Shown here piece after piece: positions 7,870 to 57,300 of a stretch of 64,000 nt of DNA; positions within the stretch are counted from its first letter, which is position 1; each line of letters opens with the position of its first letter. The stretch comes from Symbiodinium sp. CCMP2592 (taxonomy: Eukaryota > Sar > Dinophyceae > Suessiales > Symbiodiniaceae), in the NCBI GenBank assembly GCA_905221615.1, contig CAJNDT010005831.1, forward strand, positions 231,501-295,500. The letters run 5' to 3'. The notes below the pieces were generated by a model. The model was given only the letters and a program-made list of their open reading frames with translations, was not told where the DNA came from and searched no databases. The position numbers and the translations under genes are program-made.

Positions 7870-10390
7870 TGCAGATATGCGTGTTTGTGTGTGCGTATGT
7901 AGGAGTGTTTTCATCTGTGTACGTATGTACGGTGCATGCAAGCAGAGACAGAAGCAGTTGTGAAAGATTGAGCGGAAGGTTTTTCCGAAGCAAGAAGCTT
8001 TGTCAATTGTGTTCCAACCTTTTTTGCCGGGTTTCAGGTTGAAGCTTCAGTTGGAAGTTAGCCGCGACAAAAGAAGCCACCAAGACTGTTCTGGCGACAT
8101 GTTTGCAAAACCGCTGAGAGGCAACAACTAGGATTTGAAGGGACGGCAGTTTGAGACTGGCAGCAGCTTTGACAGCGCTGACGAGGAAATTTCTCCGATG
8201 TCCCACCGCCGACATCGCTTGCCGGGCCGAGTGAAGGCAGAGGGCCCAGATTGCCAGCACAGAAGCTTGAGCGATTATCTAAAGCCCAGGCATTTTAATT
8301 ACGGTTCTCAGGGCTGCTAGTGACTAGTGCACATGTGCAGGCCTTGCGGCATCTGCTTCGAGCCGCGACAAGGCGATGCCCGTTTTTCGTTTGTCCTCCT
8401 CTCTCTCTCCCTCCTTCGCTCGCTCCCTTTGGAGTTCAATGGACCGCAGCCCAGCACGGCAAATTCAAGAGGCCAAGTTGGAGTTTTGCGCAGATTCTGG
8501 TTTTAGTCCGGCCAGGGGGCGCAGTGAGCAGGCTGTGTAGATGTGCACGAGCGCCCGATTCGAATCTGTAGCTTTGTTCTGTACGTTGGTCACCGCAGGT
8601 GATCGGAGGCCAGTGGAGCGGGGCCGGGAGTCAGGTGCTCACTTGGAGTTCCAAGGAACCAGCGGGGTCCCACCTTTTTCTCATTGTTGGTGATGTTTTC
8701 AGAAGCACTATGTCACGAACGATAATTAGATGCGAGCTTCAATTCGCACTGCAGCCTGTTGCTACTGGGAGCGAAAGCGCTTGCAGATGGTTCCAAAGTC
8801 CACTGCCGATTCGCCAGGGTCTGCTCTGCCTGCCCGCACACCTTCCCGGGCGTCGAGTGGTGAGGTACCGACATGCCTTGTCCGGCCCCGATCGCAGTAA
8901 TGGCTTTGACATGCGCAGCCGGGAATCTTTCGGAAGCTACGTTCGAATTGCTCGGTGTCCCAGATGTTTGCTCTGAAGGATTTTCGACGAGCTGCACCAC
9001 CAGCACAAGCCATAGGCCGGACGGATCCTGCGGAAAAGGGGTCGACGAGTAGGACAAAAGGTTCACAAGTCTCTTGAGCAGAGCGTTTAGAAGCCGCAGC
9101 TGGGTGAATTTGCAAGATTCTGGCAGGTGCAAGGACGAGCGCACCCATAGGTCGGCGGTTTCAGATTCCGGACTTCAGAGTGCACAAACGTGAGCAAGGA
9201 GGCAATTGTTGTGTTTTCGGACTATGATCACCAGGGCTTGGACTTCTTACTGTATCCGTTGAACTACTCGGTGGCCTCTGATCCTTCGAGCTTCGTAACA
9301 TTGCTTCTTTTGGCATCAGCATCGCAGAGCGACAGCGGTCGGCGTCGTGGCTTTTGAGCGTCTGTTCCTCTTACTGTTGGCTTCTTGGCTTTAAGCGGCA
9401 TGTACCATCGTCGTTGCTGGGTTTCTAGGCAGCATTTGCACTGTCAGGGCAAATTTCTTTGCATCCGCGAAGAGCTGCAGAGTTGTGGTGCGGGTGGCGG
9501 CTGTTGCATTGCTTCGTGACTGATATGCAAGTCCTTCGTGATTGAGTCGCCGTGGTTGAGTTCCAGGGATGGGATTTGATTCGGAAGTGGAGGCAATCTT
9601 AGGAATCATATGGGCTTCTGTTCCAACAACACACCGCCTCACCGGCCAGGTGCCAGCACCGCCAGCTCTTCAAGCCAGAACGGTTTGAAGGGTAGCCCGC
9701 CAGAGAAGGCCAGCTTTTTGCCATGCGAGGCTGGTACAGAAGCACTGACCCAACTGGACCGAGGCGAAGCCTACCAGCTCTTCCAATGCGGAGAGTGAAG
9801 GCCACTTCGGAGCCTCCGATTTCAATGCAAGGTCTGGAGATGCTGGAAAGCTCTGAACAGGCGGCCACCACCAAAATTCAGCAAGGAAGCCGTCATACTT
9901 TTTATGATAACGGGCTTTTGTCGCTTGCATTCTGATTTAAGGTCCATTTCCCCCGACCAACCGCCGAGATGTGCATCTACTGAGACCCTGTAGAATCCGT
10001 CGGCTCCTTGTTGCGGCTGCAGGTGTCAATGCCACTGGTCGTGCCGGTTCTGAGGAGCTGGGGGGCATGGGGGTCTTCGTGGAGAGTTTGTGTTCTCCAG
10101 GACCATTTTTCCGACTGGCATGCTGTAGTGGCGGGTGTTACATTTGTATGACAGGCTGGAATCTGTGTTCGGGGCCTTTGGAAAGAACCTAGACCTAGCA
10201 TCAGGGGCGTGACGGCGGCAAGCGAACTCTTTTTCCTCTGGTCAGCTGTCTGTGGCTGTCTCTCCTCTCTTCTCCCACACCTCTGCTCGAGCCCATGGCC
10301 GCTTCGAGCTCCCAAGATCCGCAGCCAACGTGGCCGAACTATCCAGAGGCCGATATTCTTCAAGGGCTTAGCCGGGCTTGGGGCTGTGTC
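7870..10390. other. No recognised gene
   Basis: About 2.5 kb of unique sequence. Open frames occur on both strands but none carries a motif or AG-G exon borders I could support. It may hold introns or untranslated sequence of the zinc-finger gene that follows. Confidence 0.35.
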
Positions 10391-17036: not shown

Positions 17037-17253
17037 ACTAGCAGAAGGCACCAACTTCCTCTAATACCCGGGCTCCGACGATGTTGGCATTAAGAGGTCA
17101 GCACTACAGTGTCCTGCGATACTACGAGAGGATTGGGTTTCAAGTCGCAAGAAGCCCAGAGTTGAACAAGTAAGTGCAGTGCGTTTCTTCCTTTGATGTC
17201 CTTGTGGCCTGGTGTCCGCCCTGGAATGGGACAGCGATCGGCTGCAAGTCGCA

Positions 17254-19842
17254 ATGCTGCGCATATTTGGCGACGCAGAAGAAGAGCTGGCTAACATGTC
17301 CCTGGACGATGTCTGGAACATTAAGACCGTGAAGCAGCAGTTGCACAAGCTGCATGGGTTTTCCGTATTCCGGCAACAGCTCCTGCGGGATGGCAGCAGC
17401 CTGGAGGACGACGATAAAATAGACGAGCCCTGTGACTTGCAGCTGATCTTCTTCAACTTCGCTAAGGCCTCAAAAGAGCAAGCCGGTAAGCTGACAGCCG
17501 CTGCGCAAAGTGGCAGCATCTTCGACGTTGAAGAGATGCTGCAACGCCTCCTCGATCCAAACCAGGCAGACAAGTCTGGCCAGACACCGCTTGTCATGGC
17601 AGGCCTGGGAGGTCATGAGGTCACTGCACGTTTACTTCTGGAGGCCGGGGCTGAGAAGGACTTGCCAGATCCCAACGGCGTGACGGCTCTGATCGGTGCA
17701 GCCAGCGAAGGCCACGTAGAGACTCTTCGATTGCTGCTGGAGGCTGCCGCAGAGATGGACTTGGTTGACAGAGACGGTGACACTGCACTTATGTGTGCTG
17801 CCAGCAACGGCCACGTAGAGATAGTGCGGTTGCTGCTGGAATCGGGTGCTGTAAAGGTTTTGGCGAATTGCGCTGGCCGGACTGCTCTGATACAGGCATC
17901 GATACCAGGCTATGCAGCGACCGTTCGCTCGCTCCTGCTTGCGGGTGCCGGCAAGGACTTGGGTGACAATGCTGGTGACACAGCGCTCATTCTTGCTTCT
18001 CTCGAAGACAACATGGAGACGGTGAGTTTGTTGCTGGAGGCCTACGCGGACACAGACCTGGCCAATCATGATGGGGACACAGCTCTTATTTGCGCGTCCA
18101 GCAAGGGACATGTGGACATTGTGCGTTTGTTGCTTGAGGCCCGCGCTGATACCGACTTGGTGAACGACAGCGGAAGAACCGCCCTGATGAGTGCATGTTA
18201 CCGAGGTTCTGTCGGGACCGTGCAGCTACTCTTGGACGCCGGTGCTGCCAAGGATGTAGCTGACAAGGACTCCGAGACCCCTCTTCTTTGCGCAGCTGGA
18301 AGAGGCCATGCAGAGATCGTGCGACTGCTCCTGGATGCAAGTGCCAACCACCACCTGGCGAAGCAGAACGGTCGGACAGCTCTGATACAGGCATCTTTGT
18401 GTGGTCTGGGAGTCTCTGTGGAGAGCGCGCGCTTGCTCTTGGCAGCTGGTGCGGACAAGGACTTGGCTGACAACGATGGCGACACGGCCCTTATTTGCGC
18501 ATCTGGGAAGGGGCACACCGACATTGTCCGCTTGCTGCTGCAGGCAGGTGCTCAGAAGGACTGGGCGAATTATGGCAGCGACACCGCCCTGATTTGTGCA
18601 TCGAACGAAGGCCACGTGGAAATTGTACGGCTGCTGTTGAAAGCAGGTGCTGACAAGGACCTGGCCGACAATGATGGCGATACCGCTCTGATTTGTGCAT
18701 CAAACAAAGGCCATGGGCAGATCGTCCGCTTATTGATGGAGGCCGGTGCAGACAAGGACCTCGCAAACGATATGGGCCAAACACCGCTCATGCACGCGGC
18801 TCTACGAGGATATGTGGAGACTGCCCGACTGCTCTTGGAGGCTGGTGCCGACAAGGACCTGGCTGACAACGACGGCGACACCACTCTGATCTGCACATCT
18901 GGCAAGGGTGATGTAGAAATTGTACGATTGCTCCTGGACGCTGGTGCCGACAAGGACAGGGCGAACAGCGCGAGTGACACAGCCCTCATCTGCGCCGCCA
19001 ATGAAGGCAACGTGGAAACCGTGCGTTTGCTGCTTGCTGCTGGTGCCGCAACGGGTGCAGCGGACAAGGACGGGGACACTGCACTGATTTGTGCAGCTGG
19101 CAAAGGCCGCTCGGACATCGTGTGTTTGCTGCTCGAGTCCGGTGCGCAGCCAAACGTAGCAAACAGCAAGGGTCGCACAGCACTCATTCAGGCCTGCTTG
19201 CGAGGAACTGTAGAGACCGTAAACTTGGTCCTGGAGGCCAGCACCGACAAAGATTTATCTCAGCATGCTTGGCAAGCCCTTATTAACGAATCTCTCCGTG
19301 GTTATGTGGAAGTGATTCGCTTGCTGCTGGATGGTGGTGCTGACCCAGATCTTGCCGACTACCGTGGTGACACCGGACTCGTTTGTGCATGTGGAAAAGG
19401 ACACGTGGAGATTGCACGGTTGTTGATCGCAGCGGGTGCTGACAAGGACTGGGCAAACTATGACAGCGACACGGCTCTCCTCTGTGCAGCCAACGAAGGC
19501 CACGTGGAAATTGTACGGCTGCTGTTGAAAGCAGGTGCCAGCAAAGACTTGGCGGACAACGACGGCGACACTGCACTGATCTGCGCCGCAAGCAAAGGCC
19601 ACGAAGAGGTGGTCCGCTTGCTCTTGGACGCAGGGGTGGACAAAGACCTTGCTAACGACAGTGGACGAACAGCTCTTATGCAGGCATCTCTGAAAGGGTG
19701 GAGGAAGACTGTGACTTTGCTGTTGGATGCAGGTGCTGACAAGGACCTGGCGGATAATGATGGCCAAACAGCGCTGACGTTTTCGCAGAAGGAGGGCTTT
19801 GCAAGAATCGAGAGGTTACTTCGCGCTCAGAACAACCTGTGA
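17254..19842 (+). CDS. Ubiquitin-like/ankyrin-repeat protein, intronless
   Basis: The frame has an upstream stop at 17194-17196. The first ATG is at 17254; a GTG at 17212 would add 14 codons. The product is about 862 residues. Residues 1-60 (MLRIFGDAEEELANM, then FRQQLLRDG and DLQLIFF) look like a ubiquitin-like domain of the kind often placed before ankyrin repeats in dinoflagellate proteins. From about residue 75 to the end I count about 23 ankyrin repeats of mostly 33 residues (consensus GDTALICAS-KGHVEIVRLLL, then AGADKDLADND). One repeat (18394-18480) is 3 residues longer, another is 1 shorter, and the last is partial. Repeats beginning GDT, SDT and GRT recur in order, showing block duplication. 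The protein is probably a cytoplasmic protein-binding scaffold; partners are unknown. It has no introns, unlike the split genes nearby. A possible upstream exon at 17080-17170 (MLALRGQHYSVLRYYER) is not required. Confidence 0.93.
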   Translation: MLRIFGDAEEELANMSLDDVWNIKTVKQQLHKLHGFSVFRQQLLRDGSSLEDDDKIDEPCDLQLIFFNFAKASKEQAGKLTAAAQSGSIFDVEEMLQRLLDPNQADKSGQTPLVMAGLGGHEVTARLLLEAGAEKDLPDPNGVTALIGAASEGHVETLRLLLEAAAEMDLVDRDGDTALMCAASNGHVEIVRLLLESGAVKVLANCAGRTALIQASIPGYAATVRSLLLAGAGKDLGDNAGDTALILASLEDNMETVSLLLEAYADTDLANHDGDTALICASSKGHVDIVRLLLEARADTDLVNDSGRTALMSACYRGSVGTVQLLLDAGAAKDVADKDSETPLLCAAGRGHAEIVRLLLDASANHHLAKQNGRTALIQASLCGLGVSVESARLLLAAGADKDLADNDGDTALICASGKGHTDIVRLLLQAGAQKDWANYGSDTALICASNEGHVEIVRLLLKAGADKDLADNDGDTALICASNKGHGQIVRLLMEAGADKDLANDMGQTPLMHAALRGYVETARLLLEAGADKDLADNDGDTTLICTSGKGDVEIVRLLLDAGADKDRANSASDTALICAANEGNVETVRLLLAAGAATGAADKDGDTALICAAGKGRSDIVCLLLESGAQPNVANSKGRTALIQACLRGTVETVNLVLEASTDKDLSQHAWQALINESLRGYVEVIRLLLDGGADPDLADYRGDTGLVCACGKGHVEIARLLIAAGADKDWANYDSDTALLCAANEGHVEIVRLLLKAGASKDLADNDGDTALICAASKGHEEVVRLLLDAGVDKDLANDSGRTALMQASLKGWRKTVTLLLDAGADKDLADNDGQTALTFSQKEGFARIERLLRAQNNL

Positions 19843-24069: not shown

Positions 24070-24830
24070 GTCAATATTTACTGCTGTCGATGGCTCTTGG
24101 GAGACGGGCACCGGAATCTGCAAAAAAACTCGGAGGAGGGATGCTGCCTTTGTGTGATGTGCATATCGGCGCGTGTCGGCTTAAATGAGGAGACCAGCCT
24201 TCGCAGGACGAGGTCGGGCCCGATGTCTGCGGGTTCTGGGCTCGTGCTGTGAGGTGCCCACAAGTCGGGGACAGTTTTCTTGATCCGCAGTCCCGAAACC
24301 ATGGCTGCCGTTCAAACAGCAAGGATTCAGCTGAGTCAGTCGTGAGGCATGCAGGTGTGCGGGATTGGATATCTTCAACGACCCTAAGCCCAAGCCTGAA
24401 TCATAGCAAAGCTCTTGCATGACATGCAGCTCAGCCGTATCATGCCGTATCCTTTTCAAAGCATGTCCCGCTGCTCGTGATTAGCAGTTTCGTCTGGCTC
24501 AACTCCAGGTCTCTCGAGTTATATGCGCATTTTGTTGCACGTCTGCATACAAGTCTGAGGCAAAACCCCTTGTCCTGACTTGGTCTACGGCTTGCGGAAT
24601 TCCCGTTCAACCATTACTTTGCACCCTTCAAGCTTTGTAGATGCAACGCGGACTTGACTTTTTCGGCACGGCATGGCTGCGGGCCTGAGGAGCTCGGGGC
24701 CCAGACACATCGCTGCATCGTCGCTTCGCTGTCGCTCTGCTTTCGATCTTGGTGTGACCCTGCGTTGCCATTGGCTCTCAAGGGTCTCATACCTAGCTCA
24801 CTTGCGCTTGGGCATTGCAAAGGGCTCCGC
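24070..24830. other. No recognised feature
   Basis: Intergenic sequence between the unknown gene and the carboxypeptidase. No promoter motif is expected to be readable in a dinoflagellate and none was seen. Confidence 0.35.
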
Positions 24831-24831
24831 A

Positions 24832-27800
24832 ATGTGGCGCCTGCCTCTGCTTGCATCGCTGGCACGTGCGGCGCCTTCTGGCGAAGCGGCCTGGGACCTG
24901 ATTGCTGTGCGCACAGTCGCACCTGATCCGTTCTTGGCAGTGAGGTTTCGAATCTTCCAGGGTATGGCCCACCGCCAGCGCCGCAGTATTCCGGCTTTCT
25001 GGATGCCGGAGCAGTCGAGTCTCAACCAGCAAGAGATGTAGGGCAATGCAGAGCTCTGAAGTTGCAAGACAGTGCGAACCATTCGGCAGTGTCGTAATCG
25101 TCAATTCTACCACCGCCTGGGAACTCCTGCTCAAGAGTAAATAAATGCCTCTTAAAGGATCTAGCAAGAGATCTGGACAATCATGTGTTGGAACAGGAAC
25201 CGGGGACTCAGCTCCACTACTGGTTCGCCGCTGCAGAATCTGCGGATGCAGCCTCCCTGCCCGTGGTGCTGTGGCTGTCCCTTGCCGTGCACCTAATTTT
25301 GTTGGGGCCAACTCTGTGTAAGAGGTTTGTCTTGTGATGTGACTGACGATCAAGACCTGCGGGCTAGGAGCCAAGACTTTCAGGGATGTAAGAACGCCGG
25401 TTCAGGAGGGATTTTGACAAGGGCGAACGATTCAATGCCCAGTCCGTATGAGCAGCGGAGTCTCCGAGCTTATCCAGAATCCAGAGTTCCCTCTGAGCCG
25501 CAAACGAGACCTGAGCTTTCGACAATTCGACACCCGGTCGACCGAGCACAAGCTGGCTACTAGTAGGGTGCCACCGAGCCTGCTCCATTTCAGGAATGGC
25601 GGACCTGGCAGCAGCTCGATCTTGGGCATGTTGCAGGCACTGTCCATACGAAGGGTGCAAGCATCTCCAAAAGCAGCAGAATTTGCCTCAGGGAGTTTTG
25701 AGCACGGGAGATCTTCAGCTGGTATTGAAGTTTTCCCAATTGCGAGCCATCTGCAGAAAGCTCTTGGCCCTTGCACAGGAGAATGGGCCCTTCCTCATCA
25801 ATGCCACCGGTGGACTCATGCGAAATCCGTATGCTTGGACCAAGCAAGCCAACCTCTTGATCCTGGAGAGCTGGGTCCTCAAGACCAGGATCTCATGCTT
25901 GCAGCATCTTGTAGCGACTCTAGACTCCGGATATAGAGATGTTGGGCCGTCTGCCGCTTCACCTGTCTGGTTTCCAGAGTTGAAACAGGTGCCTCTACCC
26001 CTCCACCTACAGCACAGCATCAATAACCTGATCCCGAGGTCCTGGAGGTGTTGGATACTCCTATTGCGCGGCCATGAAGGCCTTGTGATTCGTGCAGGCT
26101 TTGGCTTGCGAGAGCAGCGTAGAAGCTCTGGAGCCAAAGCTTCGAACTTCGTCAAGCTGAGCTCAGCCGCTCAGCCTTAGCTTAGGGCCCTGGCCGGAGC
26201 CTCGATTCGGCTCAGCCGTTCCTACATCAGCCACCTTCCGCCCTCGCGTTGCCTGCAACTTCAAACCTTGATAGTGTGAGTGTTTCATCGGCTGCGTTCC
26301 TTCAGCATGCAGTAATGACTGTGCCGATGTGTGTTTCCAACGATCTCTTGGGTCCGATGGTAGAGTGTTCCCCCCTGCGGGTTCCCAAACGGTCTTGTAG
26401 CTTTTGACGATGTTAAAGGCTCCAAGCCTTTCTGGACAGGCAGGCGGCAACTGCAACAATACAGATATCTCCACGGCCCGCGCGAATCGTGCAGCGGTGC
26501 AGGACTTCTTCAAGAAGCGCCACAGCAGCAGAAATCAGTAAAACAAGCCTCCGGAGACCCCAAATTCCTGTGCTCCTCCGGCAAGGTTTCCAGAGCTGAA
26601 GGCCAACGAGTTCTTCATCACAGGCACACATTACGAGCATGCTGAGAAGCCCTCTTCCCAGCATGTCACCGCAAAGCTTGAAGCAACAAAAAAGGAAATA
26701 GCACAGCAACGTCTGAGCCTAAGCCAAAAGCTGCTGCCAATTCCGAATCGGTTGCTCAAAGGCGAATCCTACGCAGGAGTCCCTTGGCTCATTGGCTGCT
26801 GTCTTTGCCTGTTCGGACGGACCGCCGAAGTTACCTGAGTGCACGGGGCAGCTGATCTTCACCTCCAGCTGAGGTCTACATTCCGACACTGACGCATGAG
26901 ATTCTTGAAAATGCGCCTGAAGTCAAAATGATTCTGGGCTTGTCTTTGCCTTCTCCATGGCGCACGTGCCAAAAAAACCAGCACGCATGCATGATGTATG
27001 CAGCAGGTATTCTGAAATGGTTTGTGCTGCAGCTAAGGACAGGATGCTTGGCACAAAAACACAGCTTGAGGTTGTTGCAGAGTTTGGTCTAGCTACTAAT
27101 TGAAATACTTGCTCAAACCTAGGAGTTGCCGTTGGTGATCCTTGCACCGACCTGCCATCGCAGAAAGAGTCGATGGACATGTGCCTGAGCAAACATCGCA
27201 GCACATCGCACAACTCCGCGGCTTTTGTGGGGCTTCCACCTCTCCTCTTTCTGGCAGCACAGGTTGTGGTATGCACACAAGCACGGCTTCGTTCCTGACA
27301 GTGACTTCGACTATCTCTGGAACAACTGCTCAGCAAGGCATGGCAGAGTCCGTTCTTACTCCTGTTCTCCTTGTGTTCGCACACTGCTAGACTCCGCGCC
27401 GTTTTCTTCAACCGTCTGTCTGACTTTCCCTAAGCTGAGCTCGTTTCACCTCTTGTGGCTGAGTTTTTGTTAGGCATGTCCTTACATAGCGGCGCCTCGA
27501 GGCATCCATCCTTCCTAGCACGTGGGCACTGGCGCCGGTCAGCGGGGCACTGGCCTTGGGCAGGGATCACAGTATATTCTAGTGTATGCTTCTAACCGGT
27601 GTAGTGGCGCTCGCAGTGGTGGTTGGTGTTTTGCTGCGGCTGTTGTTGTTTACCGTTTTCCAGCTACCGTTCTCGAATAGGGTATGAGAGGATCGAGTTG
27701 TCCGGTTTTCGTGGCGTGTGTTTCAAGAAGGCGCTGGGAAGCCAAGATCGCGCCCAGCTTGGCCTCGGCCACCCGGCCACGTCGATAGCTTTCCGACGCA

Positions 27801-29448
27801 GCGCTGTCGTGCTCTCTCTCTCTCTCTCGCCCCCCTTTGCTCTTCAGTTCGGGAAGGGCCAGGAGAGCAGCACAGGCATCGGACGAGAAGTGCAAGCTGC
27901 TGAACCGACAGTTCTTGGCCACCACATCCCGTGGTCTTTCCCAAGGCTGGAAGAAGGCCGCTTCCCTTCTCTCATCTTCTCTCTGTCAGTGTTTCAGAAG
28001 AGACATCGAAGTCTGACCGAGGCCTACATCAACGAGCTGAACCTCTTTTCGGACGCTTCGGCCCTGGACTGGTCTCTGCCAGGCACCTTGAACTACTACA
28101 CGGCACAGTGGATGATGCGGGCGGATGCAGCTCAGCGATAACAGGGAGAGCTCAGAGCTCTCTGCCAGGGTGGCGTCCCTGGCCCCACATCCCCGTCCTG
28201 CGGCCCAGGTGAAAGCAGCTCTGCATGTGGAGAGCTCCCCGGCGACCTCCTGGCCAGGTCCGCCGGATGGCTGGCAATACACCAGCAGCCCCTCGACGGC
28301 CCAACAGACAACTTCTGCTTTTGGCCCCTTTTTGGAACTTCCCTTGAGCCGAGAATCCGATGACCCGAGGCTACAACGCCTGCAACGACGCACCGGGCAA
28401 GCCGAGCATGATCGATTTCTACCGCATGATCGCTCCAAAGCTGAGGACGACGATCGTTTCTCGGCTTTGCCTCGCTTCGACTTCCAAAGTTGAGATGACT
28501 TCTGTTTTTTGGCGGCTCTGGACTTGTCCGATTGGGGCAGCCAAGGTTTTCAATGGCGACACTGACCCCTGCGTCTCCTATGAGGGCACACGCACGGCCA
28601 TCGAGAAAGTCGGCTATGCAGTGGTTCCCGGTGGTCCATCCCTCAGTGGGAGTGTCTTGTGCTTCTCTCCGTGCCCCCCTCCTGCCGCAATCGGTCCATC
28701 TGCGGGAGGTCACTACCGCCCGTGGTTCTACGACAAGACGGCCGCGGAGATCGGAATTCTGAAAGAGCCACCCGTCGTCAGCTCTCTTGTAGGCTCGTCG
28801 CTCTTCACAGATGAGATGGGAATGGGCTGAGGAAGCCCAACCTCTTCGGCCCCAACCTCGAGCTGCAGCCTGCCGGGGCCCAGTTCGGTGGCCACGTGGT
28901 GGACTACGCGCCGAGCCAAGGGGGGGGCGCTGGTGGTGGCGGGTGCGTCTGTGCGTCGGGTCTTCCATCGTGCCGCCCAGGAGCATGGCCTTTCCTTCGC
29001 CACCGTTCACGGCAGTGGACACATGGCGCGAGCCTGAGTCACCCGCCACCCGGGCCGAGTTGGAATAGCCACGCCCCGCCTTGGCCCTTGGGAAGGTGCC
29101 GCAGTTCCGTCCCCAAGCAGCTGTCCGCTGCTTGCCCGATACTTTTGCAGATGCCCACCTCTGACGAGCTTCTCCCTTTCCGGCGGGAACTGCCATCGGC
29201 CAAGGCTTGCTTGACCGTCTCCTTTCGGGCAAAGCTTTCACACCCCTCCTTCCAAGCGACTCGGCCCAGTTACGCTTTCGACACCTCAAACCTGGGCACG
29301 TGGCAGAGTGGCCGAGTGCCCACTTCCCCAACCCAAACCACACCGAGGTGACTCAGAGCTTGCGGCCATGGACGACGACGCCTTTGACCAGGCAGTTGAG
29401 CCCTGGCACACAAACAAGGCAGTCTTCTGTGAGGCGTGTCCGAGCTAG
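24832..29448 (+). CDS. Serine carboxypeptidase, peptidase family S10, about 23 exons
   Basis: Removes C-terminal residues from peptides in the secretory or lysosomal route. ATG 24832 begins a signal-peptide-like MWRLPLLASLARAAPS. Later exons join in phase: 24961-25010 (QYSGFLDAG), 25197-25276 (HYWF, LPVVLWL), 25594-25636 (NGGPGSSSILGML), 25779-25869 (ENGPFLINATGG), 26039-26079 (PGGVGYSYC), 26440-26516, 26586-26623 (FPELKANEFFITG), 26762-26778 (GESYAG, catalytic Ser), 26874-26937, 27123-27180 (GVAVGDPCTD), 27263-27342, about 27867-27956, 28022-28126, 28209-28287, 28370-28455, 28546-28630 (FNGDTDPCVSYEG, catalytic Asp), 28709-28766, 28832-28907, 28981-29025 (TVHGSGHM, catalytic His), 29096-29126, 29205-29255, 29348-29448 with stop TAG. 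Of 20 donors fixed by phase, 15 are GC and 5 GT; all twenty acceptors are AG-G. The junction after the first exon and the exon between 27342 and 27867 are unresolved. All three catalytic residues are present, so it is probably active. Confidence 0.93.
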
Positions 29449-29459
29449 GGACTCTGGAG

Positions 29460-30035
29460 ATGTTTGTCTCATCGTCGCGACTAGTGACTAGTGTTGCAGG
29501 ATGTTGCAGGAAAGACTTCATGTCCTCTCCTAGCGGCTGTGTCAGCTGCCATTGGACTTCCCGCCCCGGCCATTGCACTCGCATCCATCCTGAGGACCAG
29601 TGGACCGACAAAGCAGAGAAAGACGTCACTGCACGAATTACTTCCTTGGTTGTTTGAGCCAGGAGCCTCTCATGCTTCGTCGACAATAGGTCGCGAGTGC
29701 AGAGAAAAAGCCTCGAAAGGGACAGCACGTTTGTTTTCCTTGGACATAGCTATGTAATGCAATGCGGGGCTTGGCGGAATCCATCTGTTAGGGGATTTGT
29801 TTGATGACTGGTGATCACGTTTGCAGAAACTCCCAGCAAATGGCTGCTCCAATCTTGCGACAGATTGCCTAACACGGTTGCAGTCGCAGACCAGATCTCG
29901 CTACTCTGACTACGGCTGCGTGTGAAACCCTTGCAACAGTTGCTGTTCCAGTTGTGCACCCAGGCCGATGATGCATCAAAGAGGCCTCGCCCATACGCAT
30001 GTCAGGGTTCGGGCTGTCATGCGGAAGTTCCTGTA
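29460..30035. other. Probable 3' region, no recognised gene
   Basis: Sequence after the carboxypeptidase stop. No motif was seen. Confidence 0.35.
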
Positions 30036-50741: not shown

Positions 50742-51146
50742 CCCTGGCAATGGTCCCTTTCCACTGTCGCGGAGACCCGCAGGTCGTTTGCATCCGTGCT
50801 GGCGAAGGAAGCGATCTTTGGCCCTCCCCTTAGCAATAGGCGTTTTGACCGTCAGCCAGATGAGGTGGCGATGGAGGTTTTGACACGTAGTTTTCACGGA
50901 TCCGTCCTCACTCTCTCAAGGTTGGGCCGCCACTTCCAGAGCAGATGACGCTCGCGTCGAAAAGGGAGCATGCTGCCAACGTGCCGCTGCGATGTCGTAG
51001 ACCCTTAGGCAGTGATCCAGTAGCCAGGTAGCCAGTTTCCAGTCATGTGCTCACCTGGCTGGCAAGCCAGCTGAGCACCGGCAACAGTTGGCAGCACTGT
51101 CTCAAGCGGTCTGCCCGGCTTCTGGCCTGCACCCCCCAGACACGAC

Positions 51147-52394
51147 ATGGAAGCGGGCGGCAGCTGCAGCCGGTGGAGTCCGGCTGTTCCAGAAGATGAT
51201 GGTCAGGGCGCTTGCACGCCAAGCCACCGGCAAACCGCGGATTCGTCAAACGACGAGGAGAGCGGGCAAGATGCGATCGTGCATTTCGATTGGGAGCCTG
51301 GGCAGGTGCTGAATCGAAGGTATCGACTGCACTCTCTAGCTGGAGACGGGACATTCGGCCGAGTCTGCCTGGCCACCGACACCGCAAAGAAGCGCCAGGT
51401 CGCGATCAAGATCATTCGCGATGTCAAGCAGTTTAGAGAGGCTGCACAAGAGGAGGCAGAGGTCTTGGCGGCTATTTGTGCAGCTGACCCGTGGGGGCAA
51501 TTTCGTTGCTGCTGGATGCACACTTCCTTCCTTCACAACTCCAGGTTCTTCTGCATGGTCCTTGAACCACTGGGCTGTAGCGTGCACGAGTTCACCAAAA
51601 ACAACGATTACAGAGGGTTTTGGCTTCAGGACATTCAGATCATTGCAAAGCAGCTCTTGTATGCCCTGAACTTCTTGCATATGAAGATGAGGTATACCCA
51701 CACGGACTTGAAGCCAGAGAACATCATGCTGACCAGCATTGAGCCTGCAAGGCCGGAGTGGTTTCCAAGGGAGGAGTTCTGCGAGGTGCATGGCGACGAA
51801 GTGATGCGCAAGAAGAAAAGGAGTCGCCCCCCGTACCTGCGACCACGTAGCGCGGGCATCAAGATCATCGACTTTGGCAACACGGTTCGGGAACATGATC
51901 GCCGTGAGAAAATCATCAACACCCGGCAGTATCGGGGGCCCGAGATCATTTTAAAGCTTGGCTGGGATGAGAAGTCAGATGTTTGGTCAGCTGGCTGCGT
52001 CCTGATGGAGCTGTACACTGGTGAGATGCTCTTTGGTACGCATGAGAACATGGAACACCTGGCTCTTGTGGAGCAGATCCTTGCTCCGCTGCCTTCGACA
52101 ATGATCCGGCGTGCCCATTGCGATCATGTCAATAAGAGTCCGATGTTCAAGAAGCTTCGCACTTCGAAAAAGGAGAGTCGATGGGCATTGAATTGGCCTG
52201 CCGGGGCATCATCTGATGCTTCCATTCAGAAGGAGGCCAGTCATGTGCCGATTGAAGAGCTCTTGCAACAGAAAGACTCCGATCAGAGGCTCGGAGCTCT
52301 GGTGCGTGAGATGTGCCAGCTCCAGCCGGACAGGCGCATCAGCGCCAAGAAGGCCATGCATCACGAGTTCTTCGACTTCTGGTATGATGAGTGA
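51147..52394 (+). CDS. CLK/LAMMER-type dual-specificity protein kinase, intronless
   Basis: One uninterrupted frame of 415 residues. The N-terminal 45 residues are unstructured. The kinase domain begins at about residue 55: glycine loop GDGTFGRV (about 66-73), VAIKII with the ATP-binding Lys (about 85), catalytic loop HTDLKPENIM (about 186-195), metal-binding IDFG (about 246), activation segment TRQYRGPEIIL, and DVWSAGCVLMEL. The HTDLKPEN loop and the EHLALVEQILAPLP segment (about 305-318; canonical EHLAMMERILGPLP) identify the CLK/LAMMER family, which phosphorylates RS-domain splicing factors in the nucleus. An insert of about 35 residues precedes the IDFG motif. All catalytic residues are present. 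The start is the first ATG giving a full domain; the frame has no introns, unlike neighbouring genes, which suggests origin from a reinserted mRNA. DYRK-type kinases are the nearest alternative but lack the LAMMER motif. Confidence 0.93.
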   Translation: MEAGGSCSRWSPAVPEDDGQGACTPSHRQTADSSNDEESGQDAIVHFDWEPGQVLNRRYRLHSLAGDGTFGRVCLATDTAKKRQVAIKIIRDVKQFREAAQEEAEVLAAICAADPWGQFRCCWMHTSFLHNSRFFCMVLEPLGCSVHEFTKNNDYRGFWLQDIQIIAKQLLYALNFLHMKMRYTHTDLKPENIMLTSIEPARPEWFPREEFCEVHGDEVMRKKKRSRPPYLRPRSAGIKIIDFGNTVREHDRREKIINTRQYRGPEIILKLGWDEKSDVWSAGCVLMELYTGEMLFGTHENMEHLALVEQILAPLPSTMIRRAHCDHVNKSPMFKKLRTSKKESRWALNWPAGASSDASIQKEASHVPIEELLQQKDSDQRLGALVREMCQLQPDRRISAKKAMHHEFFDFWYDE

Positions 52395-54177: not shown

Positions 54178-54335
54178 GAACGATGATGTTTTGACATGTT
54201 TTGATAGGTCTCCAGCTTGTGGCGCTGAACTAAACGCAAGTACTTGATCGTCGCCTTGAGTGACCCGCACGTACTTGGGCTCGCAGGCATGTACGGTGGT
54301 TATGTGTTGCGTAGACATGTCAATCATGCCAAGCA

Positions 54336-57300
54336 GTGCCAAACCGGCTCGGGACTCTCTGCATGGGAAGGGAGGATGAGCAGGACGCCCTGGCACAGCT
54401 TGTGCAGCTCGTGCTGGACCGCACGGACGAGAGACCGGCTGTGCTGCATCGTGCGGAGTTCCTAAGCCTCGCAGAGCTCGAAGAGTGTGTGGCGGCGCTC
54501 TCCGTGTACCTTGGGGACTTGGAATCATTCTCTGGATTCCTGGGGATTTGCGTTCACCGCAGCTTCGCTTTGGTGGTGTCCTTACTGGCTTGCCTTCTGA
54601 ACAAGAAGGCCTTCATTTGCCTGGACCCGGCATTTCCAGCAAAGAGGCTAGGCTTCATCCTGGACGACTCCGGGCCAGGGGCTTTGTTGCTGGATGAGGC
54701 AACAGTCCACCAACATCCCCACCTTCCCTGCTTTTGCCGTCACTTCCTCCTGCTGGACCGACGAGGGCAGGTGTGTCAGACTGGTACGCAGCCACAGAAA
54801 CCAGGAGGTGAAGAAATCCCAAGCGGAGTCGCATATGCGATCTACACAAGTGGCAGCACAGGCCAGCCCAAGGGCGTGGTGGTCTCGCGGCCCAACTTGT
54901 ACCCCCGCTTGAACAGTGCACAAAGCGAGTGCACAAAGCACGGTAAAGCAGAGCTCAGAGAGTGGAGCCTAGGGCCTAGGTCCTAAGTTGATACTGAGGG
55001 TAGCGGGTGGTTTTGAAAGTAAGGCTCCAGCCGAGGCACAACTTGCTCTCCTTCTTCTTGGAGCTTCTTGGCCCCCGACTCGAAGGCTTCGTTTGGGTGG
55101 CCGTGACGACTTTCTGCTTTGATATCGCCCTTCTTGAGCTGCTCCTTCCCCTGATGTGCAGCTGCATGTGGCCTCGATGCATTTGGCCTGACCGGATTAA
55201 AGGAGACTTGCGGCCCGAGTCTAGGGGGTTGTAGGGCGTGTGGGATGCGACAGGTTGGATGTCGTGGGAGCGGAGATCTCCAAACAGGGGCCCGAGCTGA
55301 AAGCTCGTCTTGCCAAGTATCCCAGGCTTCGGCATGACTATTTTCATGCAGTTCGCATGCTCCATGGTGGCAGGTGAAGGCAAGTGTAGCGCCCTGGTGC
55401 AGGTTGGCTTTCCAGGCCACGCCCAGCAGCTACAACCTCCTCAGGTGCGGGGCGAGCGTGGTGAATAAAAGCAAGCATCGGAAGACATCTATCTATCTAT
55501 CTATCTATATATATATATATATATATACACATATGCATATGCTCGCCCCCAAATATCCACGCTATCGTGGTTCATGTGTGTATGTACATATATATATATA
55601 TTATAATATAATGAATTGGTCTGTGTGTCTCTCTGTGTGTGTATGTGTGTGAAACTCCTGTAACCGAGGAATTCCAGTAAAGCAGGGGGCCGGTGCTCTC
55701 CCTAGGGGTCACTGGCCAACGAAGACACCCGCAGGGAGGGGTGCAAACGAACCTGTTGCAAGATATGCGAAGGGCATCCAGGCTAGGCCAAAAAACCTGG
55801 CATGCCGAAAGGCTTGCAGTCAGGCACAAGGACACAAACATGCGTGTGCATGTTCTTGTAGCTCTCCACGACTATTGACTACATTGGAGGGATCGATGAG
55901 GAATGGATTGAGGGAGGGGGATCTGCAGCCAAATTTCCCTCGATTGAATAGAGCTACACGGAAGGGCACGGCTTTGTGGCATTGGTTGAGTGTTTGACCT
56001 TTCAAGAACTTCTGCACAAGTGGCAGGGGGAACAAGAATGAACAAGGCTTCCAGGGTCCGGTACAGGGAGCCGTTGTAGAACACAGCACTTTGTTGCGTC
56101 CTTTCCCGCAGCAGGTCATGTGGCTGGGCTCCTCCTGCAGGAGCTGTGCTGCTCTGCGGAGGCGAGCCCTTCCCTGCGTGGCTCAGCGAGTACGGCAGCG
56201 ACGTCTACCTCCACAACGTGTGCCTCTCCATGTCTGCTACAGTGCAGCTGTTGCGTTTTATTGGGATAACTTTGGATTTCGCCTCAGGTATGGTCCCACA
56301 GAAACGACAATTTGGTCGACGGCGGAGCATGTCGACGCGCCGGCCACTGGTGCTTCGGTGCCTGGATGGTTCGTTAGAATCAATGCCCTCGCTGCGGGCA
56401 GGACGAAGCCTCGAAGCTGCTGCAGGTTTCTATCGGGCCTCCCATCCGTGATACGACCCTGCGGCTGTGCAGCGACCCTTGTCTTGGTCCAGACATGCAG
56501 AAAGCTCCCGGACGGTGCCTTGCCGGTTGCGAGACAGCTCTTTTGCTTAGAGTCGATGCCTGCAAGGAGCGAGCTGAGCGAGTCGAGAAGTTTGAGTCCG
56601 GAGAAATCATCATAGGTGGGGCCCGGGATGGCCAGGGTCGCCGTTGAAGCCTCGCATTCGCTGAGCTGCCAGGAGGCGCTGGCGTGAGCCTGGGGCTGCA
56701 TGGCTTGACTTGGCTTCGTCTGGGTCCCTCCTCGGCTGTGCGGTTGTCGACTCGTCGTCTTCTTGCTTGCAGCGGCAGCCGTAGTCGCCGTAGTCGTGCA
56801 CTTCGCTCGGGTCTCTGCAAGTGTTGCGGTCGTCGAAGACACGGTCACTTGCCTACAAGGTGCACAACTGTTCTTGCGAATGCTTCCCTAGGTACTGGAA
56901 AAGGGAGCTCTTGACCCTCGAGCGCTTTACACCGTCTCTCAGCGGCGGCAAGGAGTTCCGCACAGGAGCTCAAGCCATGCAGTCTCTTTGGGCGGATATG
57001 CGCATGCTAGCATGTGCATCGACTGCAAACTCCAGGTCCCAAATCCGCTCTAAAGGCATGAACATGAGGAAGACCCGAAACTCCTTCCTGAGCCGTAGAC
57101 AGGAGACTTGGGACGCAGGGATGACAGTGGAAAGACCTACTGCCTGGGTAGGCCTGGAAGTGCCTGTGGAATGAACTCTAATCAGCATACCGGGAAGATG
57201 AAGCTTCGAAGCAGCCGCCAAATTGCTGCTCTAGCCCATGCCTTCCTCTGGCGAGGATAGATGAACAGGTCAAGGTCAATGGCTTCCGCTTGGAGCTGTG

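Follow-up and report, generated by a model that had tools for sequence, protein, structure and literature searches.

Mostly GC donors in a predicted serine carboxypeptidase gene of Symbiodinium appear ordinary for its intron-rich genome

Does a gene in which most introns begin with GC call for a special splicing signal, or is it an ordinary gene of its genome? The question is raised by a serine carboxypeptidase (family S10) gene in a 64,000-nucleotide stretch of Symbiodinium sp. CCMP2592 (assembly GCA_905221615.1, contig CAJNDT010005831.1, positions 231,501 to 295,500; hereafter, the window), which a first-pass annotation had singled out as a special natural case of 5' splice-site choice. We conclude that it is very probably an ordinary intron-rich gene, with a donor mix that is the norm of its genome, where introns look largely like insertions of introners (small inserted DNA elements) and donor base +2 would have come from the insertion target.

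We first describe the gene. Among the stop-free frames of 24700-29600 the S10 motifs occur in order, and a draft stitched from them matches human cathepsin A with an E value of 4.5e-47. The model was built with a splice-aware aligner that allows introns in all phases, using a profile of yeast carboxypeptidase Y, human cathepsin A and L001, an intronless S10 gene of the same genome, and was finished by hand using reading frame, S10 spacing and the acceptor AG/G (AG, with G opening the next exon). The result, on the plus strand at 24832-29448 as the first-pass annotation had it, has 23 exons, 22 introns and 490 codons. Pfam Peptidase_S10 (PF00450) matches residues 21-448 of 490 in one stretch (E 2.8e-86; 290.9 bits, cut-off 21.9), and the nearest relative with a solved structure is cathepsin A (5.6e-55). 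GESYAG, NGDTDPC and GSGHMVP are all present; we take GESYAG, NGDTDPC and GHM to be the catalytic Ser, Asp and His motifs. A gene on the opposite strand was rejected, the 406-residue minus-strand frame at 28135-29352, antisense to the S10 3' half, having no Pfam match. A functional copy elsewhere, which the first-pass annotation had named as a possible refutation, did not turn up: in the assembly (1,098,105,373 bases in 5383 contigs, with the window as part of contig C4969) there is no close copy of the protein, the best others being 41-45% identical (22 of 22 candidates scored). By these sequence comparisons the locus is an ordinary intron-rich serine carboxypeptidase gene encoding a predicted peptidase.

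Seventeen introns of the model begin with GC and five with GT, and all 22 end in AG with the next exon starting with G, as had been noted; that they are actually spliced in this way is what we infer. The earlier count of 20 introns (15 GC, 5 GT) was right about the GC majority and has as many GT donors as ours, though it came with no list of introns to set beside the model; its total is two lower. The introns had also been described as fixed by phase, which was too strong. The aligner placed eight in 24942-26912 (6 GC, 2 GT) and, in 26860-29500, a number that varied from two to five with intron cost and included none upstream of 28303; at the two lower costs it started a longer intron from GA at 28765 and skipped exon 19 of the model. 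Introns 1, 10-19 and 22 depend wholly or partly on the hand model, and the Pfam match does not reach intron 22 or the last exon. When both flanks are required to score 5 or more, 16 introns are firm (12 GC and 4 GT), the firmness of S10 donors being partly a matter of our judgement.

Alternatives were sought as in-phase GT, GC or GA within -9 to +12 nt of each donor, with acceptors held as modelled. GC was the sole class available in 11 introns (I4, I5, I6, I8, I10, I12, I13, I15, I20, I21 and I22) and GT in two (I16 and I17); I1 had GC plus one distant GA, and eight introns were mixed. By our judgement, S10 spacing decides four of these eight, I3 and I9 for GT, I7 and I14 for GC; the donor choice is ambiguous in I1, I2, I11, I18 and I19. 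When all 16 donor dinucleotides were equally allowed and the acceptor kept as AG, sampled paths through the N-terminal half used GC in 26.5% and GT in 15.5%, the next being GG at 7.7%. Once the acceptor was also left free, GC stood at 12.0% and CA at 9.8%, and the GC excess nearly vanished; in the C-terminal part (28520-29260), free donors gave GC 15.0% and AT 14.7%, so that sampling does not discriminate there. Within these limits, the sequence suggests that the excess of GC donors in this gene is more than chance.

Is the mix peculiar to this gene? Four other genes with 78 introns gave 39 GC, 17 GT and 22 GA donors and AG/G acceptors in 76 of 78, in a mapping that itself favours GC, GT or GA donors and AG/G acceptors. 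They are the S10 paralog L049, mapped against L001 (74% identity in the largest exon; 5 GC, 3 GT, 3 GA); GOGAT C4955 (18 introns; 5 GC, 6 GT, 7 GA); glycine decarboxylase (GcvP) C780, mapped against E. coli GcvP and only where that protein gave anchors (22 introns; 14 GC, 3 GT, 5 GA); and GOGAT C4889, the best mapped (15 GC, 5 GT, 7 GA; 27 of 27 AG/G). The last was compared with an intronless copy identical at 988 of 1034 aligned residues (about 96%, chunk overlaps counted twice), and 25 of its 27 donors were unchanged when any donor dinucleotide was allowed. The baseline leaves out S10 loci L048 and L050, the GOGAT copy C5074, the E. coli ValS, MetH and PurL regions and, because of weak borders, the S10 gene L047 (3 or 4 introns; 1 GC, 1 GA and 1 GT when donors are held to these classes).

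Donors other than GT are equally common in the S10 gene (17/22, 77%) and in the other four (61/78, 78%; Fisher p=1.0), and the case is to that extent not special. What survives of the claim is a somewhat high pure GC share (17/22 against 39/78, p=0.029) and the absence of GA (0/22 against 22/78, p=0.003), set against a large spread of GC share from gene to gene (14/22 in GcvP, 5/18 in GOGAT C4955). The difference in GC share has p=0.14 against GOGAT C4889 alone (15/27) and p=0.12 among firm introns only (12/16 against 16/33 in the first three genes). For GOGAT C4955, 18 of the 20 introns found had entered the counts, chunks having been cut differently; restoring the two omitted, both GC, brings the baseline to 41 GC of 80, with a p of 0.032 for GC, and leaves p for non-GT donors at 1.0. 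Chosen because of its unusual look, and with so large a spread between genes, the S10 gene should not be read as differing from its genome. As far as predicted borders can tell, its donor mix is the norm.

Intronless copies stand next to intron-rich ones in two of these families, S10 (L001 and L049) and GOGAT (L055 and L079 with L080), at the identities given above. These intronless copies are perhaps retrocopies, and they are usable as natural cDNA in splice mapping. Contig C5051, 2.96 Mb long, is possibly bacterial contamination; its matches to GcvP (55% to E. coli) and to S10 (L006) are both without introns. The stretch HLNLHKTF appears three times over about 310 bases on the minus strand of L052 (about 8043-8351), which belongs to the GcvP gene region.

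How might such a mix arise? We propose that the introns of this genome are largely inserted introners, young or decayed. An element bearing a 3' splice site (...AG) at its end would insert into an exon and duplicate 4 bp of target, GNNN where usable as an intron. The left target copy would become intron bases 1-4, so that donor +2 would initially be the target's base. A spliceosome with canonical U1 and U6 small nuclear RNAs (snRNAs) would require G at +1 and tolerate C, T or A at +2, and +2 would tend towards C over time.

Agreement between donor and exon bases would be the mark of a duplicated target. When donor bases +2 to +4 are compared with exon bases +2 to +4 past the acceptor across 100 introns, 133 of 300 positions agree (permuted 82.3; none of 20000 permutations was as high); at +2 alone, 55 of 100 introns agree (permuted 30.7). 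The S10 gene alone gives 26 of 66 positions at +2 to +4 (permuted 16.9, p=0.007) and is one of four genes, out of five, in which this repeat signal holds singly. Duplications can be read directly in one family. Three introns, one with a GA donor in L049 and two with GT donors in GOGAT C4955, consist of a 99-bp element that is also nested within two further introns; a genome search gave 40 scored copies among 276 candidates. Twenty full-length copies were read: the 4-bp duplication is perfect in 15 of them, agreement extends to 72 of 80 bases, and duplicated base 2 is T in 13 copies, A in five, and C and G in one each. In this family, the sequences indicate, the donor follows the target. As for terminal inverted repeats, L049 and GOGAT C4955 taken together gave 64 at the inner ends against 37.2. 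Copies of the 99-bp element at L063 and L070 have TA-rich left flanks and no 4-bp duplication (2 and 1 of 4 bases).

Several points weigh against extending this account to the S10 gene. Its splice borders are predicted from genomic sequence alone, and the genome average predicts neither its GC share nor its lack of GA. A complete 4-bp repeat is found in 1 of 22 introns (permuted 0.5), agreement between donor and exon at +2 alone reaches 10 of 22 (p=0.057), and inverted repeats at the ends are no more frequent than in permuted pairs (p=0.20 and 0.25). A search that was not genome-wide, covering the rest of the window and loci up to L057, found no similarity to any of the 22 introns. L049 is without the target-repeat signal (10/33, permuted 9.4), and the 99-bp family, with mostly T or A at base 2, leaves GC donors unexplained. 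An origin of the S10 introns from elements is thus argued by analogy.

The GC donors themselves may be an end state of decay: introns would start as GT, GA or GC by target duplication, and +2 would later become C by mutation or selection. This would add to the introner explanation, and we regard it as quite possible, if short of probable. The donor and exon bases at +2 disagree in 31 of 76 firm introns, and 24 of these 31 have C in the donor, where intron composition would predict a share of 0.326 (p=4e-7). Consistent with this, exon +2 is matched by 19 of 22 GA donors and 16 of 22 GT donors but by only 20 of 56 GC donors among the 100 introns. In S10 introns 4, 7, 14 and 20 the exon base lies within a residue conserved in the alignment references, which would make the donor the likelier side to have changed. 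However, outgroups do not polarise the direction, target preference may vary among element families, the exon may instead have changed away from C, and the S10 part of the firm set carries the judgement mentioned above.

What of the snRNAs that would read these donors? For U1, 42 matches were scored, all over the gathering score (20360 first-look candidates), and the 5' end was canonical in 20 of 20 fetched loci: AAACTTACCTGG. A 21-base pattern of the 5' end, open at the base opposite donor +2, had 70 matches, of which 69 have A, one C and none G; 69 read ACUUACC and none ACUUGCC. A U1 variant pairing with GC was rejected on these 0 of 70 matches, from a pattern that is blind to copies differing elsewhere in its 21 bases. 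The comparison of U1 5' ends proposed in the first-pass annotation thus brought up no GC-adapted U1. U6 had 48 scored matches, with ACAGAGA in the one copy read. The U1 genes lie in tandem units of about 2136 bp on contigs C2929, C3660, C1571 and others (loci L009-L028), U2, U4 and U5 share these units in five loci scanned, and the U6 matches form repeated series on contigs other than the U1 ones.

Complementarity to U1 differs between the two sides of the donor. At +3 to +6, single genes match U1 at 0.73-1.36 of 4 bases, the figure for control sites within introns being 1.01. On the exon side (CAG), 0.86 to 2.00 of 3 are matched, over the control of 0.78 in every gene, suggesting that some U1 pairing remains there. 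The commonest intron bases are C at +5 (59/100) and T at +6 (42/100), which differ from the usual donor consensus GTRAGT. We put forward tentatively, and with some doubt, that in this genome complementarity to U1 stops at G1 on the intron side of the 5' splice site, and that +2, first set by target duplication, drifts to C, with GC as the end state under canonical U1.

That the donor counts are unreliable, through a pseudogene at this locus or a partly artefactual model, is unlikely. Such a reading could draw on a model made from genomic DNA with uncertain terminal exons and five uncertain introns, on an automatic path that departs from it at introns 18-19, and on a run of 8 G in intron 19, where a one-base frameshift could take the place of the intron. 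Yet the model gives a single 490-residue open frame with three catalytic motifs and one Pfam stretch from residue 21 to 448, and the assembly holds no better copy. Least credible, and very improbable, is a gene specialised for GC through a variant U1 or another factor preferring GC donors: its GC share and missing GA donors would fit, but none of the 70 U1 matches pairs with GC (a divergent U1 would escape the pattern), GC leads in GcvP (14/22) and GOGAT C4889 (15/27) too, and several of its ambiguous introns have in-phase GA alternatives.

The features of the gene are collected in Table 1. The last ten introns (27957-29347) are all 65-92 nt long, far under the mean of about 505 bp given for S. 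microadriaticum in a table of PMC5177918. Elsewhere in the window, an 881-residue open frame with ankyrin repeats lies at 17197-19839 (+), and open frames at 51075-52391 (+) and 54315-54983 (+) have protein-kinase and AMP-binding-enzyme matches. The window contains no Rfam family at gathering thresholds, no tRNA in a search with the bacterial code, and only partial matches to the spliced-leader core.

Table 1. Predicted features of the S10 gene, in window coordinates
Feature	Position	Strand	Remarks
S10 serine carboxypeptidase gene	24832..29448	+	23 exons, 490-residue model, Pfam match
Exon 1	24832..24870	+	3' border provisional, alternatives exist
Intron 1	24871..24944	+	GC donor, position uncertain
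Intron 2	25011..25196	+	GC donor chosen; in-phase GT and GA alternatives
Intron 3	25277..25593	+	GT donor, placed by VVLWL/NGGPG
Intron 4	25637..25778	+	GC donor, sole near in-phase choice
Intron 5	25870..26038	+	GC donor, sole near in-phase choice
Intron 6	26068..26439	+	GC donor; every near in-phase choice GC
Intron 7	26517..26585	+	GC donor by DFFxxFPE spacing; GA alternative one codon upstream
Intron 8	26624..26761	+	GC donor; interrupts codon before ESYAG
Exon 9	26762..26778	+	GESYAG motif
Intron 9	26779..26873	+	GT donor, placed by GESYAG/VYIP
Intron 10	26938..27122	+	GC donor, sole near in-phase choice
Intron 11	27181..27262	+	GT donor chosen; GA alternatives
Intron 12	27333..27875	+	GC donor
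Intron 13	27957..28021	+	GC donor
Intron 14	28127..28208	+	GC donor by ADVKAALHV spacing; GA alternative
Intron 15	28288..28369	+	GC donor
Intron 16	28456..28545	+	GT donor; GTTT at both ends, the complete 4-bp repeat
Exon 17	28546..28633	+	NGDTDPC motif
Intron 17	28634..28708	+	GT donor; near choices all GT
Intron 18	28767..28831	+	GC donor chosen; GA alternative; automatic path differs
Intron 19	28908..28980	+	GC donor chosen; GA and GT alternatives; run of 8 G inside
Exon 20	28981..29025	+	GHM motif
Intron 20	29026..29095	+	GC donor
Intron 21	29127..29204	+	GC donor
Intron 22	29256..29347	+	GC donor, weak, beyond Pfam match

The observation on the S10 gene is well supported at the level of sequence and ordinary for the lineage; what makes it interesting is the general question and not this one gene. 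A majority of GC donors in a gene of this lineage would need no special splicing signal, and the diversity of donors fits a by-product of intron birth. If the drift to GC holds genome-wide, this would be a rare case in which GT is not the stable state despite an unchanged U1. GC donors make up about 1% in mammals; here they are half or more. For dinoflagellates, Mendez et al. (2015) reportedly described identically repeated intron borders, with the repeat around both splice sites, and Roy et al. (2023) is said to be a larger study of their introners. The preference for donor C where donor and exon differ is perhaps new; neither it nor the weak intron-side match to U1 is stated in the literature searched, which leaves subscription papers outside, and we make no claim of priority.

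The donor habit and the introner mechanism are already in print for S. microadriaticum, in sections of PMC9860276, PMC7789003 and PMC5177918, and the first-pass remark that GC donors are known in Symbiodiniaceae holds (PMC7789003, PMC5177918). The genome studied here is of Symbiodinium type, intron-rich and with GC, GT and GA donors. The donors listed as predominant in S. microadriaticum are GC, GT and GA (PMC5177918, Table 1). A table of PMC7789003 gives GT-AG as 0.26, read as 26%, and GC or GA as 73.95%, in a column assigned to this species by its 505 bp mean intron length, the column heads not being visible. A section of a review puts GC or GA donors at 25-74% in Symbiodiniaceae (PMC11453091). 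The likeness, on these tables, is that GC is commonest, then GT and GA (PMC5177918, PMC7789003); the difference is that GA is not seen in the S10 model. S. minutum, in the part of PMC4083563 that treats it, uses GC almost as much as GT, frequently has G after the acceptor AG and carries its snRNA genes in a cluster; the G after AG is as found here. The same target-duplication arrangement is printed for the introners of S. microadriaticum (PMC9860276, Fig. 2B legend), unlike which the S10 introns have no family assignment, our element being found in other genes. Finally, the asymmetric change towards GC has a mammalian counterpart, where an excerpt of PMC2490688 gives 298 inferred changes from GT to GC against 40 from GC to GT.

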